Source of the DNA: Rhizobiaceae bacterium
Lineage (GTDB): Bacteria; Pseudomonadota; Alphaproteobacteria; Rhizobiales; Rhizobiaceae
Length of the DNA stretch: 36,203 bases
Assembly (NCBI GenBank): GCA_027000565.1
Contig: JALTNS010000415.1
Location: 1 to 36,203 of the forward strand
Reading direction: 5' to 3'
Below, piece after piece: positions 7,494 through 28,534 of this stretch. The notes under the pieces were generated by a model that made no database searches, was not told the DNA's origin, and saw only the letters and a program-made list of their open reading frames with translations. How positions within the stretch are numbered: the first letter of the stretch is position 1; each line of letters begins with the position of its first letter. The translations under genes and the position numbers were made by a program.

Positions 7494-8459
7494 TTATTTG
7501 ACCGAAATTCGCAGCAAATACAAATCAAGTGGTCTGCCCTGTCCGGATATATCGGCAACGATCGAAATTGAACCACTTTTGTTTTCATCTTCCGCGTTAC
7601 CTCTGATAATTTTGACATTGAAAACAAAAGATTCTGCAAGTTTGCCGGTGGTAAACCTCTTGCGACCGCAATCGCCTGACGAATTAAACTGGCATGTTAT
7701 AACAAACTGAAGGTCCGCACCGTCCCCGGATTTGGTTTTTAACTCGAATGTGGCCGTTTTCCCGTGCATGGCTTCCATAAGGCCGGGTTCAACGGTTACA
7801 ATAGCACTGTTTGATGTGACCCCGCCCTGAGCGGCCAGTCGTACATATTTACCTGCACCGTCTTCCCCCAATTCGGCAGTGGAAGCTGCCTGGGTTGACA
7901 ATTCGCGCGGGTCTCCTGGCTCAAATATAGTCAGCCATTCACCGTCAACCAGTTCTGATCCATCGGGCGCCGAACTTTCAGCTTTCAGTATCCTGGGAGG
8001 ATTTGGAACACTGTTGTCCCGCATCGCCGCCGGTCTGGCCAAATCCTGATCGTAAATCCACCAGGTGCCCATAGCCGCAGCCACTATAATAGTCGTACTC
8101 AACAACAATATTGCAAATGGCCGGCGTTTGAATATCGAGCGCTTTTCAGATTGCGCCGCATCATTATAACCCGCGGGCCCCTGCACTGGTGGCGGCTCGA
8201 CCATTACCGGGTTAACTTCAGGATAAACAGTATCCGGTGTGATGTATCTTGATTCAATTTCTGCAATCGCAATTTCCAGGCGCTGCTGCTGATCGCGAAT
8301 GTTTTCCGGACTGAGATTTCCGGCACTATTAAGCATTTTAGCTAAAGTTTTGCGGGCAGAATCATATATTTGCTGGCGAACCAAAACAGAACCAGAATCC
8401 TGCTTTTCAAGTGCCCTTTGAATGACATCTTCAAATCCGGCCAACAAAACCCCCGTCAA
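7494..8459 (-). CDS. Hypothetical membrane-anchored protein (one predicted TM, C-terminal beta-rich domain)
   Basis: 321 aa ORF with N-terminal helical region, hydrophobic FAILLLSTTIIVAAAMGTWWIY, then a soluble domain; no confident family. Confidence 0.75.
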   Translation of the reverse strand: MTGVLLAGFEDVIQRALEKQDSGSVLVRQQIYDSARKTLAKMLNSAGNLSPENIRDQQQRLEIAIAEIESRYITPDTVYPEVNPVMVEPPPVQGPAGYNDAAQSEKRSIFKRRPFAILLLSTTIIVAAAMGTWWIYDQDLARPAAMRDNSVPNPPRILKAESSAPDGSELVDGEWLTIFEPGDPRELSTQAASTAELGEDGAGKYVRLAAQGGVTSNSAIVTVEPGLMEAMHGKTATFELKTKSGDGADLQFVITCQFNSSGDCGRKRFTTGKLAESFVFNVKIIRGNAEDENKSGSISIVADISGQGRPLDLYLLRISVK

Positions 8460-8516
8460 GTAATATCAAAATGCTACATTGACGAAAGGTCAACAAATTT
8501 GCAACCTCCGCGTTTT

Positions 8517-8659
8517 AGCGCTTCATCATTTGATGAAATCACTCTCGTATTAATTCGCTCACGGCCATTCGTGCAGCAAACGGCCTCCGCGGGGGCGGCG
8601 CACAAGCGCCGGACCGTCCTTGCGGCCAGACTGTTTCCGTATAAACGTGAAACGGTCTA
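8517..8659 (+). repeat. Dispersed structured intergenic repeat, copy 1
   Basis: AGCGCTTCATCATTTGATGAAATCACTCTCGTATTAATTCGCTC...CCGTATAAACGTGAAACGGTCTA; about 92% identical to 12948-13090 and about 90% to 27556-27697 (hand alignment). Confidence 0.93.
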
Positions 8660-8729: not shown

Positions 8730-9230
8730 TCAGCGCCGTTTTCTGCGGCGCTCGGATGCCGGCTGAAATGCCAACTTTGAATGAAATTCACAATAGGGCG
8801 TGGAATCCTTGGAATTGTGGCCGCAAAAACTGAAGTCAGGATATTGCGGATCACCACTTGGCCATTTGCAGGTGTTTTCAGTGAGTTGCAATACCGTCAA
8901 ATGCTTCGAAATCGGCACAACAACATCTTCTGCCGGTTTCGGCCTGAAACGAACTTCCGCATCAGCATCTATTTTAAGCGCATTTGCACCGCTGGTGCGT
9001 GGTGTGGCCCGCGTCGTCCGGGTTGCGGTATAACCCGCGCTGCGCGGTTGGCGCTTGGCTCTTGCCGTGGATGATGCGGGTTTTGCGCGTCCGGAAAGTC
9101 CCAGCCGGTGCACTTTGCCAATAACGGCATTGCGGGTCACACCACCCAGATCAGCCGCGATCTGACTGGCGCTCAAGCCGTCAGCCCACAATTTTGTCAA
9201 TCGACCAACTCGATCTTCTGTCCAGGACAT
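8730..9230 (-). CDS. gcrA: Cell-cycle regulator GcrA
   Basis: MSWTEDRVGRLTKLWADGLSASQIAADLGGVTRNAVIGKVHRLGLSGR, the typical GcrA N-terminus; C-terminal C-x-WP..DP....F.FCG...... region. ORF extends to 9263, but ATG at 9230 fits the family start. Confidence 0.95.
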   Translation of the reverse strand: MSWTEDRVGRLTKLWADGLSASQIAADLGGVTRNAVIGKVHRLGLSGRAKPASSTARAKRQPRSAGYTATRTTRATPRTSGANALKIDADAEVRFRPKPAEDVVVPISKHLTVLQLTENTCKWPSGDPQYPDFSFCGHNSKDSTPYCEFHSKLAFQPASERRRKRR

Positions 9231-12947: not shown

Positions 12948-13090
12948 AGCGCTTCATCATTCGATGGAACCACTCTCGTATTAATTCGCTCACGGCCATT
13001 CGTGCTGCGCACGGCCTCCGCGGGGGCGGCGCACAAGCGCCGGGCCGCCCTTGCGGCCTGACTGTTTCCATATAAATGTGAAACAGTCTA
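12948..13090 (+). repeat. Dispersed structured intergenic repeat, copy 2
   Basis: AGCGCTTCATCATTCGATGGAACCACTCTCGTATTAATTCGCTC...CCATATAAATGTGAAACAGTCTA; same length and orientation as copy 1. Confidence 0.93.
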
Positions 13091-19518: not shown

Positions 19519-21087
19519 TCAGTGTTTGCTCACCATCGCATTACGTGGCAGCATTATGTTAAAATTATCACGCAACTGATGGTCAAGTTCTGGTGATAAA
19601 TGAGATGGAAAATAGCCATCAAGAATGCGTCTTTTTTCCTGAATGGCACGTTCGACAATATCCGGCTTTTTTGCTTCGACCCACTCTTTCGGGCTCATAC
19701 GGTTGCCAATAACCGGGTAGATGTATTCGCTTTCCATCAATGACAGGGTTTGTCCGTGGCCAAGATAGTGCACCGGGCCTTCTGTGCAGACATTACGCAT
19801 CGTCTCTACAGACAAGGTTTGTTCATTGACCTCGATGCCGCGCACACAACGGAGCGCCTGCCCCAGCATATCGTTGTCAATTATCAGGCTTTCGTGGCAA
19901 AATCCCATCAAAGACCCGTGCATTCCAGCGGCTTCATAGATCATATTGCCACCGGCAAGGCCAGCCATAACGGTGGTTATGCCTTTTTCATAACCTGATT
20001 GGATATCCGGCATTATTGCATCGGCCATTCCTGCAGGTGTTCCGCATGCCAGATTGTAATGAATGGCCATTTGCCCGCAAGCCGCGGTCAACAGGGACTG
20101 TTCACCAGAACCTCCGGACATGGCACCGGTGCGCAGATCGGAAACAAAAGGCCATGCGCCAAGCAATGCCGGATGGCCGGGAACAACAGCATTAACATAA
20201 ACCAGCCCCGCAAGCACTTCGGCTATTGCCTGAACAATTGACCCGGCAATGGCGGCAGGCGAGGTCGCACCCGCCTGACCGGCAGACAACAGCAGAATTG
20301 GAATTCCGGCCTTTACGCAGTCCTCCAGTACATCACAGGCATCTTCAGCAAACCGTAGTGGCGGAACAACAAAGCAGCTGGAGATTGAAACGAACGGCCT
20401 TGCCCGAAATGCCTGTTCACCTCCGGCGATCTGGTAGATCATATCAATAACCGGCGCGACATTCTGCTTGAAGGAAATGCTGGTACCCACATGTTTCTGA
20501 GTGCCCGAAACGCAGGCATAAAGCGTGTTAATATCGAGATCCAGCGACTTGGCCATATCGCGCGCCACCATCGGTCGTTGAAAAAAATGGATGTTGTCCT
20601 GCACATCAACAATGCGGGCGGCATCGTAAATATCTTGAAGATAACTCTCGCGGTATTCGTTTTTTTCCACATCAACCATATGAACGGCTGCACCGGCCGT
20701 GCCAAAATGAACCTTTGTTCCATGCGGGGAAATATCATGTTTCGGGTTGCGTCCACACAGGACAAAATCCCGATTGGCATTAGCAATCGTATCTTCAATG
20801 AGCTGCCGCGGAAAACGCAGGCGATTGTCTTCGCCGTAAATTGCGCCGACCTTGGTGCAATATTCAATGCAGCCGGGAGTTGCCAGCGACAGACCGATAT
20901 TTTCCAGAACATCAAGGGCTGCTTCGTGAATCTGCAACACCTCCGACTGCGACAACGGTTTGTACCGGCCACTCTCCAGCCCCATTCGAACCGGTTTTAT
21001 CGCTTCTGCCAATGGCGCTGCGCGCATTGCATGGCGGGCGGAACGGCCACCGGCACGACGGGTGCGCGGGCTTGTTGCAGGGCTCAT
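19519..21087 (-). CDS. MttB-family (trimethylamine/quaternary amine) methyltransferase, non-pyrrolysine type
   Basis: RRAGGRSARHAMR N-terminus plus KPLSQSEVLQIHEAALDVLENIGL...; continuous ORF with no in-frame amber codon. Start at MSPATS (21087); ORF track extends to 21132. Confidence 0.87.
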   Translation of the reverse strand: MSPATSPRTRRAGGRSARHAMRAAPLAEAIKPVRMGLESGRYKPLSQSEVLQIHEAALDVLENIGLSLATPGCIEYCTKVGAIYGEDNRLRFPRQLIEDTIANANRDFVLCGRNPKHDISPHGTKVHFGTAGAAVHMVDVEKNEYRESYLQDIYDAARIVDVQDNIHFFQRPMVARDMAKSLDLDINTLYACVSGTQKHVGTSISFKQNVAPVIDMIYQIAGGEQAFRARPFVSISSCFVVPPLRFAEDACDVLEDCVKAGIPILLLSAGQAGATSPAAIAGSIVQAIAEVLAGLVYVNAVVPGHPALLGAWPFVSDLRTGAMSGGSGEQSLLTAACGQMAIHYNLACGTPAGMADAIMPDIQSGYEKGITTVMAGLAGGNMIYEAAGMHGSLMGFCHESLIIDNDMLGQALRCVRGIEVNEQTLSVETMRNVCTEGPVHYLGHGQTLSLMESEYIYPVIGNRMSPKEWVEAKKPDIVERAIQEKRRILDGYFPSHLSPELDHQLRDNFNIMLPRNAMVSKH

Positions 21088-21128
21088 ATCATTCTCCCGG
21101 TTACTTGTGCAGCCCCGCCAAAACGGGG

Positions 21129-21956
21129 TCAATTACCACCCATTTTTATAAAATCTTCAACTTCGGCGCCGCTGACGGAATTGGACAGTTTTGTGAAATC
21201 TCCGGCATCAATCATTGCAGAAACCGTGTCACGAATAACCCGATGGGTGGCACGCGCGATGGCCGAACCCAAACTGATGCGGCGCACTCCACAGGCAGCA
21301 AATTCAGCATGTGAATGTTTGACATAAGGCCCTGCTGCCAGTGCATTCACCGGGATTGAAACCGATTGACACAGGAGCCTGATATCATCAAGCGAGGGTG
21401 GAATGGGCACATAGACTGCATCAGCCCCGGCCTTTTCAAACGCCTGAGCGCGGCGGATGGCTTCGCGCATATCGTAGGCGCCCAACATTACCCCATCGGC
21501 GCGGGCGGTGAATATAAATGGTCGGTCAAGGCTTCTTGCAGCATCTGCCGCGGCCTTTACCCGTTCAACCGCCAGTTCAAACGGATACGATATTTCATCG
21601 TGCCGCATGGTTGTATCTTCGATTGAGCAGCCTGATAGTCCGGCCTCAGCGGCCAGCCGTATGGTCTCGGCAACCGTATCGGGATCATCGCCATAGCCGT
21701 TTTCAAGATCGCCGTTTACCGGCAACGGTGTGGCTGCAACGATGTCGCGTGCATGGGCGAGCGCCTCATCGCGGCTGACATCGCCCATGTCGAATTTGCC
21801 AATTGTAAAAGCATGGCCTGAACTGGTTGTGGCAAGCGCCTTTGCACCAAGTGCTGCCATCATTTTGGCGGAACCCAAATCCCAGGGGTTAGGCATGATG
21901 AAACAGCCGCTCTCGTGCATCGCGGCAAATGTTTCATGTCTTTCCAAAAGGCTCAT
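21129..21956 (-). CDS. Isocitrate lyase/phosphoenolpyruvate mutase superfamily protein
   Basis: FIMPNPWDLGSAKMMAALGAKALATTSSG..PLPVNGDLENGYGDDP..GLSGCSIEDTT..FIFTARADG..RRAQAFEKAGADAVYVP. Confidence 0.88.
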   Translation of the reverse strand: MSLLERHETFAAMHESGCFIMPNPWDLGSAKMMAALGAKALATTSSGHAFTIGKFDMGDVSRDEALAHARDIVAATPLPVNGDLENGYGDDPDTVAETIRLAAEAGLSGCSIEDTTMRHDEISYPFELAVERVKAAADAARSLDRPFIFTARADGVMLGAYDMREAIRRAQAFEKAGADAVYVPIPPSLDDIRLLCQSVSIPVNALAAGPYVKHSHAEFAACGVRRISLGSAIARATHRVIRDTVSAMIDAGDFTKLSNSVSGAEVEDFIKMGGN

Positions 21957-26851: not shown

Positions 26852-27436
26852 CTAATAAACCGGGGGGCTGACCACCCAGATAATCACTGTTTTTTCATCA
26901 CCTGGATTGCTCCAGCGATAGGGCTTGTTTTCAAAGCGAAAACTGTCACCAGCCTGAAGTTTGAATAATTGACTGCCAATCCACAGATTGATCGTTCCCG
27001 AAACGATATAACCGGCTTCTTCGGTTTGCCGTAGGACCGGCTCGCTCATTTCTGCTCCCGGCTCAAGCACCGAGCGGAACATTTCAAACGATCCGCCAAG
27101 ATCAGGAGAAAGCAATTCTTCGATGATGCCATCTTCAACCGTTCCAAGCGCCCGGCGCGATCCGGCGCGAACAATGAATTCACGCTCTTTGCTTTCATCG
27201 TCATCAACCATGAAAAACCAGCTTACCGGCACATCAAAGGCTTTCGCCAGAGTGCGAAGATCCTTGATCGACGGGGTGGAGAGGCCGCGTTCAATCTGAC
27301 TGATAAAACCAACTGACCGGCCAATGATCAGCGCCAGTTCCTGCAGTGTCAGATTTCGGGATTTGCGCAGGGCACGCAAATCGCGACCCAGGGAATGGGC
27401 CGCATCGTCATGCTGAATGGCAATTTGAGTGTTCAC
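26852..27436 (-). CDS. XRE-family HTH regulator with C-terminal cupin domain
   Basis: LGRDLRALRKSRNLTLQELALIIGRSVGFISQIERGLSTPSIKDLRTLAKAFDVPVSWFF + cupin (VLRQTEEAGYIVSGTINLWIG..LQAGDSFRFENKPYRWSNPGDEKTVIIWV). GTG at 27434-27436 proposed; the ORF-track M at 27541 would translate across the palindrome at 27491-27523. Confidence 0.87.
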   Translation of the reverse strand: MNTQIAIQHDDAAHSLGRDLRALRKSRNLTLQELALIIGRSVGFISQIERGLSTPSIKDLRTLAKAFDVPVSWFFMVDDDESKEREFIVRAGSRRALGTVEDGIIEELLSPDLGGSFEMFRSVLEPGAEMSEPVLRQTEEAGYIVSGTINLWIGSQLFKLQAGDSFRFENKPYRWSNPGDEKTVIIWVVSPPVY

Positions 27437-27490
27437 TAATCGAAGTTCCAACGTCAGACTCAATTGTCGCAAGTTGGAGTGAAATACGGT

Positions 27491-27523
27491 TTTCGTGAAA
27501 AAATCAATCAATTTTTCACGAAA
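27491..27523. promoter_or_regulatory. Perfect inverted repeat, candidate operator for the XRE-cupin regulator
   Basis: TTTCGTGAAAAA-ATCAATCAA-TTTTTCACGAAA, 12-bp perfect arms, 9-nt spacer. Confidence 0.7.
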
Positions 27524-27555
27524 GGATAATTTCACATTCATTTTTCAATTACTGG

Positions 27556-27697
27556 AGCGATTCATCATTTGACGGAATCACTCTCGTATTAATTCGCTCG
27601 CGGCCATTCGTGCTGCGCACGCCTCCGCGGGGGCGGCGCACAAGTGCCGGGCCGCCCTTGCGGCCAGACCGTTTCCGTATAAACGTAAAACAGTCTA
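27556..27697 (+). repeat. Dispersed structured intergenic repeat, copy 3
   Basis: AGCGATTCATCATTTGACGGAATCACTCTCGTATTAATTCGCTC...CCGTATAAACGTAAAACAGTCTA; 142 bp (1-nt deletion relative to copies 1 and 2). Confidence 0.93.
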
Positions 27698-27748: not shown

Positions 27749-28534
27749 TCAGGATGGCTTGTCCTTTAGCTGATCAGTGGTTTTAACCTCCACATCCGCA
27801 GCCTTGCAGATTTTCTGAATTTTTTCGTTCAGTGGTGCATCGGTGACAAAGATGTCAATATCCGACAGGTGGCCGATTTGTACCGGCGCACGACGTTCAA
27901 ACTTCATCGCATCTGCAACCAGAATTTTCTTGCGCGCCTGCTCGAGAATTGCCCGTGCCACCCGGACTTCCTGATAGTCAAAATCAAGAAGACAGCCATC
28001 TTCGTCAATCGACGATGCTCCAATAATGGCAAAATCAACCTTGAACTGCCTTATCAGATCAACGGTTGCCGCCCCAACAATTGCCCGGTCGCTTTTGCGC
28101 ACTGTACCACCGGCAACCACCACCTCGATCTCTGCCGCATCGGAAAGAATATAGGCAACATTCAAATTATTGGTGACCGCCACAAGGCCACGATGATTGC
28201 GCAATTGTATGGCAACACTTTCTACTGTTGTGCCGATATTCAAAAACAGCGAGGAATTGTCGGGAATGAGGGCTGCTGCAACGCTGGCAATCTTGCTTTT
28301 GGCATCAACCGCCAGTTCACGGCGTGAACGATAGGCAAAGTTGGTTGTGCTTGAGGGATAAACCGCTCCGCCGTGAATACGGTTAAGCGCCTTGATTTCA
28401 CAAAGATCATTGAGGTCCTTGCGAATGGTTTGCGGGGTAACCTGAAACTGGAACGCCAGCGAATCCACATCCACCCGCCCTTCGCGTTTGGCGATCTCGA
28501 AAATGTCTGATTGCCTTGGATGTAGTGGCCGCAT
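27749..28534 (-). CDS. DeoR/GlpR-family transcriptional regulator
   Basis: HPRQSDIFEIAKREGRVDVDSLAFQFQVTPQTIRKDLNDLCEIKALNRIHGGAV (DeoR HTH) + DeoR C-terminal sensor (NIGTTVESVA, VTNNLNVA, VVAGGTVRKSDRAIVG). Confidence 0.92.
   Translation of the reverse strand: MRPLHPRQSDIFEIAKREGRVDVDSLAFQFQVTPQTIRKDLNDLCEIKALNRIHGGAVYPSSTTNFAYRSRRELAVDAKSKIASVAAALIPDNSSLFLNIGTTVESVAIQLRNHRGLVAVTNNLNVAYILSDAAEIEVVVAGGTVRKSDRAIVGAATVDLIRQFKVDFAIIGASSIDEDGCLLDFDYQEVRVARAILEQARKKILVADAMKFERRAPVQIGHLSDIDIFVTDAPLNEKIQKICKAADVEVKTTDQLKDKPS

Follow-up and report, generated by a model that had tools for sequence, protein, structure and literature searches.

The repeated block and its copies

The window, by which we mean the whole stretch of 36,203 nucleotides that was analysed, carries three copies of a block of about 140 bp, each close to the end of a gene. 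The original prediction had picked out these blocks, and their coordinates, their plus-strand orientation and their sharp boundaries were all confirmed: copies 2 and 3 match copy 1 at 90-92% identity along the full length, and the sequence outside the three blocks is unrelated between copies. The distances claimed past the stop codons were found to be correct, at 71 bp for gcrA, 15 bp for hslO/HSP33 and 52 bp for the DeoR gene, and Pfam upheld the identities of these neighbours as gcrA, HSP33/hslO and a DeoR-family regulator. The features are the following.

8516..8517, plus strand: 5' TA of copy 1 (target duplication), from the sequence; the duplication was shown at the empty sites of other copies
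8518..8657, plus strand: copy 1, the strict unit between both TAs, from the sequence and BLAST
8517..8544, plus strand: terminal hairpin H1 of copy 1, GCGCTTCATC-ATTT-GATGAAATCACTC, which holds the 5' inverted-repeat end, from folding and covariation
8557..8627, plus strand: class-wide structured core of copy 1, from model and alignment
8629..8657, plus strand: terminal hairpin H5 of copy 1, GACTGTTTCCGT...GAAACGGTC, which holds the 3' inverted-repeat end, from folding and covariation
8658..8659, plus strand: 3' TA of copy 1 (target duplication), from the sequence, the flank profile and empty sites
12948..13088, plus strand: copy 2, 15 bp past the stop codon of hslO/HSP33
27555..27695, plus strand: copy 3

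Copy 1 lies between gcrA (minus strand, stop at 8730) and a minus-strand gene at 7494-8459, and its core reads, in order, GCTCACGGC, the variable hairpin H2, GGCCTCCGCNNGGGCGG, H3 (GGCGC-ACAA-GCGCC) and the hairpin H4. In copy 2 the 3' TA is at 13089-13090 and the 5' TA has decayed. Copy 3 has the stop of the DeoR-family gene (27749-28534, minus) on one side and an HTH/cupin gene (26852-27541, minus) on the other; its 3' TA is at 27696-27697 and its 5' TA has decayed to TG. The orthologous loci of two relatives in the genus, G002 and G003, are without copies 1 and 2, and at the place of copy 3 the element is present in G003 and absent from G002. Elsewhere in the window, positions 19929-20028 (minus), inside the open reading frame 19519-21132 (minus), gave an Rfam match of 62.9 bits to PYLIS_3, the pyrrolysine insertion element of mttB; the gene is of the MTTB family and is open under the standard code, so it holds no in-frame amber codon.

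The expectation of many copies genome-wide was borne out in the host genome (G000), a 3.7-Mb draft in 525 contigs that is 90% complete. About 40 full-length copies were detected there by BLAST (E < 1e-32, the scoring limit of the search), and a searchable covariance model of the core (R1) made 69 matches in the same draft (E <= 1e-3). The unit is also abundant in all three of the other genomes of the genus, namely G001 (QIIJ01, Aurantimonadaceae SZUA-100), G002 (JALSIJ01, Rhizobiaceae 354-166 bin.030) and G003 (JAJRQF01, Dive100_bin10.37), each of which has its own subtype expansion, mostly 69-79% identical. Rfam contained nothing relevant at gathering or permissive thresholds and the core belongs to no Rfam family; the genome search, covariance model and Rfam comparison proposed with the original prediction gave further copies and no existing Rfam entry. 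No record in the plasmid and phage collections matched the element, and no description of it was found in the literature searched. One contig of the draft, at L261 (G000:C157:3450-3850), carries what by eye resembles an archaeal RuBisCO-type gene and is probably foreign in the assembled genome.

Insertion at TA and position at gene ends

The repeated block is a mobile, MITE-like element and is more than a structured intergenic repeat. Two statements of the original prediction had to be corrected here. Terminal inverted repeats, which it had called not obvious, are present in imperfect form (TA-GASYGYTTCA), and target duplications, of which it had likewise seen no obvious sign, occur as a 2-bp TA duplication at empty sites. 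The 5' end reads TA-GAGCGYTTCA and the 3' end, as its reverse complement, TA-GACTGTTTCA; at about 10 bp the repeats are short, and the two ends agree at about 7-8 of 10 positions.

Because the intergenic DNA around the window's own copies is too diverged for junctions to be read base by base, we read them from G002 against G003, which are close relatives, searching the joined flanks of each copy in the other genome. At all four clean base-level empty sites a single TA (or a mutated form of it) in the empty site has become two TAs flanking the unit in the filled site. Removal of the unit and one TA leaves no other length change at three of the four sites, and one or two single-base differences at the fourth. 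At L092/L291 the empty CCCTG-TA-AATCAGG faces the filled CCCTGC-TA-unit-TA-ATATCAGG; at L073/L292, once unit and one TA are taken out, CCATTTCATTGATTAAAATA is equal in length to CCATTTCTT-TA-ATTAAAATA; and equal-length alignments are obtained in the same way at L085/L293 (CTCCCTTTAGTGATGC) and at L076/L294 (AAATACCTTGGGCGTCTGG, with a TA/TG substitution). A fifth pair, L082/L295, preserves what a deletion left of an older insertion common to both genomes. In 37 copies of the host genome, the 5' TA is mostly preceded by C or T, and the 3' TA is followed by A in 20, G in 11, T in 6 and C in none (a purine in 31 of 37), which describes a Y-TA-R target. A duplication longer than TA was considered and rejected, the flanks beyond TA being no more alike than shuffled pairs. 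The repeat thus displays the features of a MITE that we looked for: about 140 bp of non-coding sequence, 40-69 copies, terminal inverted repeats (albeit imperfect), TA duplication and empty sites.

The position of the copies relative to genes was taken from a custom gene finder run on the loci that contain elements. Of the 65 copies that lie between predicted genes, 33 are in convergent gaps. These loci also contain 117 gaps of 20 bp or more without an element, and 14 of those are convergent (Fisher p = 3e-8). Divergent gaps are avoided, with 5 copies as against 25 of the 117 element-free gaps (p = 0.02); two further matches overlap predicted genes. The 3' CTA coincides exactly with the TAG stop of the facing gene in nine copies (distance -3), and the 5' TAG is the stop of the upstream gene in nine others (distances 0 to -2), so that the element's own terminal TAG serves as a stop codon in 18 cases. 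These TAG stops can be explained by two things: TAA and TAG stops fit the Y-TA-R target, and both ends of the element begin with G. Insertion into a TAA or TAG stop would regenerate TAG, making such insertions harmless. Harmless insertion at stop codons, combined with purging from coding and promoter DNA, would account for the crowding at convergent gene ends.

Other repeats were seen beside some copies. At L255 (G000:C278:2700-3400), downstream of a gene end, a truncated copy of the element is directly adjoined by a second, larger MITE of about 310 bp with near-perfect inverted ends of about 23-25 bp (TA-GAGCCTTTCATTGTTAAATAGAA). At L053 (G000:C128:760-1027) two copies, one of them divergent, overlap head to head, which suggests a nested insertion. 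The right flank of L089 (query 1576-1650) is another repeat, with dozens of copies in both G002 and G003, that directly adjoins the element.

A folded core shared across the class

Between its TAs the unit consists of H1, a linker, the core (GCTCACGGC-H2-GGCCTSCGCNNGSGCGG-H3-H4) and H5, so that a core of about 85 nt with three hairpins sits between two terminal hairpins. The hairpins that had been proposed are real. None of 200 shuffles folds as well as the native sequence for copies 1 and 2 (for copy 3, 4 of 200 are as good), and the stems covary between species. The stems of H2 and H4 vary freely in sequence and retain their pairing. Watson-Crick covariation is near-complete and extends to a 2-bp S-S' pair, in which the 'S' that follows CCT and a second S are joined in all four Watson-Crick combinations (29 CG, 5 GC, 6 AU and 3 UA). 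Overall, the covariation score is 0.230 in the genus and 0.272 class-wide, compared with 0.123 for shuffled alignments in each case, and both values lie above all 500 shuffles and all slid controls. In the class-wide alignment, which was fitted to the model, G-U pairs barely exceed A-C mismatches (87 against 64 among 2888 pair cells), so these counts point to no clear RNA strand and do not separate RNA from DNA.

Beyond the genus, matches are mostly to the core or to single hairpins. In a pattern scan of named genomes, at least 104 stretches contained the core, and nearly all of them came from Hyphomicrobiales (Rhizobiaceae, Hyphomicrobiaceae, Rhodobium, Maritalea, Anderseniella) and Caulobacterales-type lineages (Robiginitomaculum, Henriciella, Marinicaulis, Asticcacaulis); matches of the same scan in Streptomyces, Hymenobacter, Cupriavidus and other non-Alphaproteobacteria were judged to be chance in GC-rich DNA. 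With the covariance model the core was found in 25 of 289 sampled genomes of Alphaproteobacteria, with at least 15 matches in some. Such patchy presence, high copy number and tight similarity within genomes is the pattern of a mobile element. In JAAEMP01 the core lies inside different ends, TATAGCAGAACACCTTTAT...AAAGGTGTTCTGCTATA, and two loci there (L113 and L156) have more than one core in tandem within one pair of ends; in some other lineages it has no visible ends. In the host genome, L265 (G000:C135:5277-5467) consists of two tandem core-only units of about 104 bp that lack terminal hairpins and adjoin a gene end. Since the core is conserved throughout the class while the ends are exchanged, it should have a function, whether for the element or for the host, and we infer that it probably does something useful to one or the other.

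Origin and mobilisation of the element

The repeat is likely to be a non-autonomous MITE of the IS630 / Tc1-mariner type, moved in trans and carrying the conserved folded core. An IS630-family transposase acting in trans would recognise the short imperfect ends TA-GAGCGYTTCA and TA-GACTGTTTCA, each within a terminal hairpin, and the unit of about 140 bp would insert into a Y-TA-R target and duplicate the TA. A candidate occurs in the genus: G002 has an IS630 copy (L249:100-1145) with a frameshifted transposase and the ends TA-GAGCACTTCCGG and TA-GAGCACTTTCGG. Members of this IS630 subgroup from the genus, the family and the order have the ends TA-GAGCACTTYC and TA-GAGCGTTTCA, and the ends of the element match these at up to 9-10 of 10 bases. 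Relatives of the G002 transposase were sought in 121 genomes, of which 42 were positive; inverted repeats, sought without reference to the element sequence, were obtained at 10 loci, 8 of them beginning GAGC and 2 AAGC. The ends are GAGCGTTTCACTTT / GAGCGTTTCACATT in G007, of the same family, and GAGCGTTTCCTC / GAGCGTTTCATG in G398. Mean identity to GAGCGTTTCA is 7.3 of 10 for the 5' ends and 7.2 of 10 for the 3' ends, compared with 4.4 of 10 for other TA-GA decamers in the window, and an identity of 9 of 10 is reached by 17 of 46 five-prime ends and by none of 41 controls. After the TA, the commonest 5' ends are GCGCTTCATC (two bases shorter, 8 copies), GAGCGCTTCA (5 copies) and GAGCGTTTCA (5 copies), and the commonest 3' end is GACTGTTTCA (23 copies). 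Given the matching ends and the TA duplication, trans-mobilisation of the IS630 type has the best support among the mechanisms considered; RUP is tied to IS630-Spn1 by the same reasoning (PMC2229807). The identity of the transposase is deduced from the end sequence, the TA target and its presence in the genus.

No IS630 with matching ends was found in the host genome in the 525 contigs of the 90%-complete draft, in which repeats assemble poorly. An IS630 partner in the same genome is not strictly defining for a MITE, as the partner may be lost. The one IS630 locus of the host has other ends, TA-ACCGTCTCA; at this locus (L248/L270, G000:C247), which is of another type, part of the transposase sequence is repeated. 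JAAEMP01, where the element ends are TATAGCAGAACACC, has five IS630 loci, none with matching ends, and a different mobiliser may operate in that lineage.

The same observations can be read as those of a selected RNA module, in which transcribed hairpins at gene ends serve as terminators or stabilisers of mRNAs, or as insulators between convergent genes, with mobility being secondary. The strong enrichment in convergent gaps and beside stop codons would fit such a module, as would the stable folds with their covarying stems, the T-run that follows H1 in the G002 subtype and an orientation bias of 19:8 in co-directional gaps. That bias, however, reaches only p = 0.052, and any element that targets TA and is purged from genes and promoters would be expected to gather at gene ends. 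The terminator role raised in the original prediction was not supported, since a search at copy 1 for an intrinsic terminator (a GC-rich stem followed by a U-run) found none. The G-U and A-C counts given above reveal no clear RNA strand, and the fact that relatives have empty sites beside the same genes speaks against a required role, so we regard the RNA module as unlikely. A somewhat better, though still doubtful, case can be made that the core is a replicating or functional entity in its own right, an old element recognised as ssDNA or RNA and captured repeatedly between different TA-type palindromes. Hyphomicrobiales and Caulobacterales share the core but have different ends; some cores lack terminal hairpins, and others stand in tandem between a single pair of ends. 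The near-complete Watson-Crick covariation of the core extends to the S-S' pair, and solo TA-flanked H5 palindromes occur (L253, in the host genome); but in this genus the empty sites show the whole element, hairpins included, as the mobile unit.

Two further alternatives invoke known classes of bacterial repeat. The original description of the block as REP/MITE-like survives in its second half, through the copy number, the exact empty sites with TA duplication and the IS630-like ends. Its first half, in the RAYT sense of a REP or REPIN moved by a Y1 (RAYT/IS200-like) transposase, has in its favour two palindromes per unit, an intergenic position and many copies; Y1_Tnp (PF01797) is nevertheless absent from G000, G003, G060, G304, G230, G068 and G127, all of which have copies, and TA duplication is atypical of Y1 transposition, which leaves that reading with almost no weight. 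It is very improbable, too, that we are dealing with a CIR/RIME/Bru-RS-type alphaproteobacterial repeat that serves to carry CcrM (GANTC) methylation sites. Two arms, a linker and TA termini are indeed what is described for CIR (PMC2229807), and GANTC is found in H1 of 27 of 42 copies of the host genome. The site is not enriched over composition, however (28 sites against 23.4 expected); copy 3 retains it as GAATC, but copy 1 has lost this consensus site from H1 and copy 2 also lacks it, and CIR, at about 110 bp, has no three-hairpin core in the review's description of it.

We return to the IS630-type MITE and to its closest known counterparts. RUP, the repeat unit of pneumococcus, is mobilised by IS630-Spn1 (Oggioni and Claverys 1999, as summarised in PMC2229807). 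It resembles the present element in being intergenic, of about 100-140 bp and high in copy number, with TA duplication and short inverted ends like those of an IS630 of the same group; it differs in sequence and host, and no structured core, composite two-palindrome ends or class-wide sharing of a core has been reported for it. ERIC, or IRU, of Enterobacteria is a 127-bp intergenic repeat with TA termini (PMC2229807). It shares with our element the intergenic position, TA termini, target duplication, a stable RNA fold and taxon-wide distribution. No sequence relation between the two is known, and the core described here sits in different ends or in none, whereas ERIC to our knowledge keeps a single end type. 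As outlined in the same review, CIR of Caulobacter and Brucella (Chen and Shapiro 2003, via PMC2229807) has two arms and a linker, TA termini and GANTC. Judged from that outline, it is the nearest alphaproteobacterial relative in design, with two palindromic arms, a linker, TA termini and GANTC in one arm of many copies, and by its description it is set apart: GANTC is neither constant nor enriched in our element, and the review's account of CIR includes no three-hairpin core. The IS630 family itself (Tc1/mariner superfamily) has the TA target and, in the genus and family, the terminal repeat TA-GAGC[A/G][C/T]TTYC; its members are about 1050 bp long, and our element is about 140 bp and has no transposase gene. 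RIME and Bru-RS of Rhizobiales are grouped here with CIR.

The best reading of these data appears to be a new family of IS630-type MITE, of a kind already known, with RUP and ERIC as its analogues, in which the unit surrounds a class-wide structured core not described before; derivation from IS630 is supported by the sequences of the ends and the target. We put forward more tentatively, as a possibility, that the core of about 85 nt is an ancient alphaproteobacterial structured element, recognised in its folded form as ssDNA or RNA, that has repeatedly been captured as cargo by different TA-inserting palindromes.

The family offers empty sites resolved to the base and, within the genus, a transposase that is a candidate for moving it, and it provides a simple account of how repeats come to gather at stop codons, through a Y-TA-R target and ends that would rebuild TAG. 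Its covarying core, found class-wide, defines a concrete family that can be searched for with model R1. The repeats are useful as strain markers and are likely to cause assembly breaks in draft genomes of marine alphaproteobacteria. If the core is indeed ancient cargo, its hairpins would encode a conserved selfish or regulatory function that lies outside any known family.
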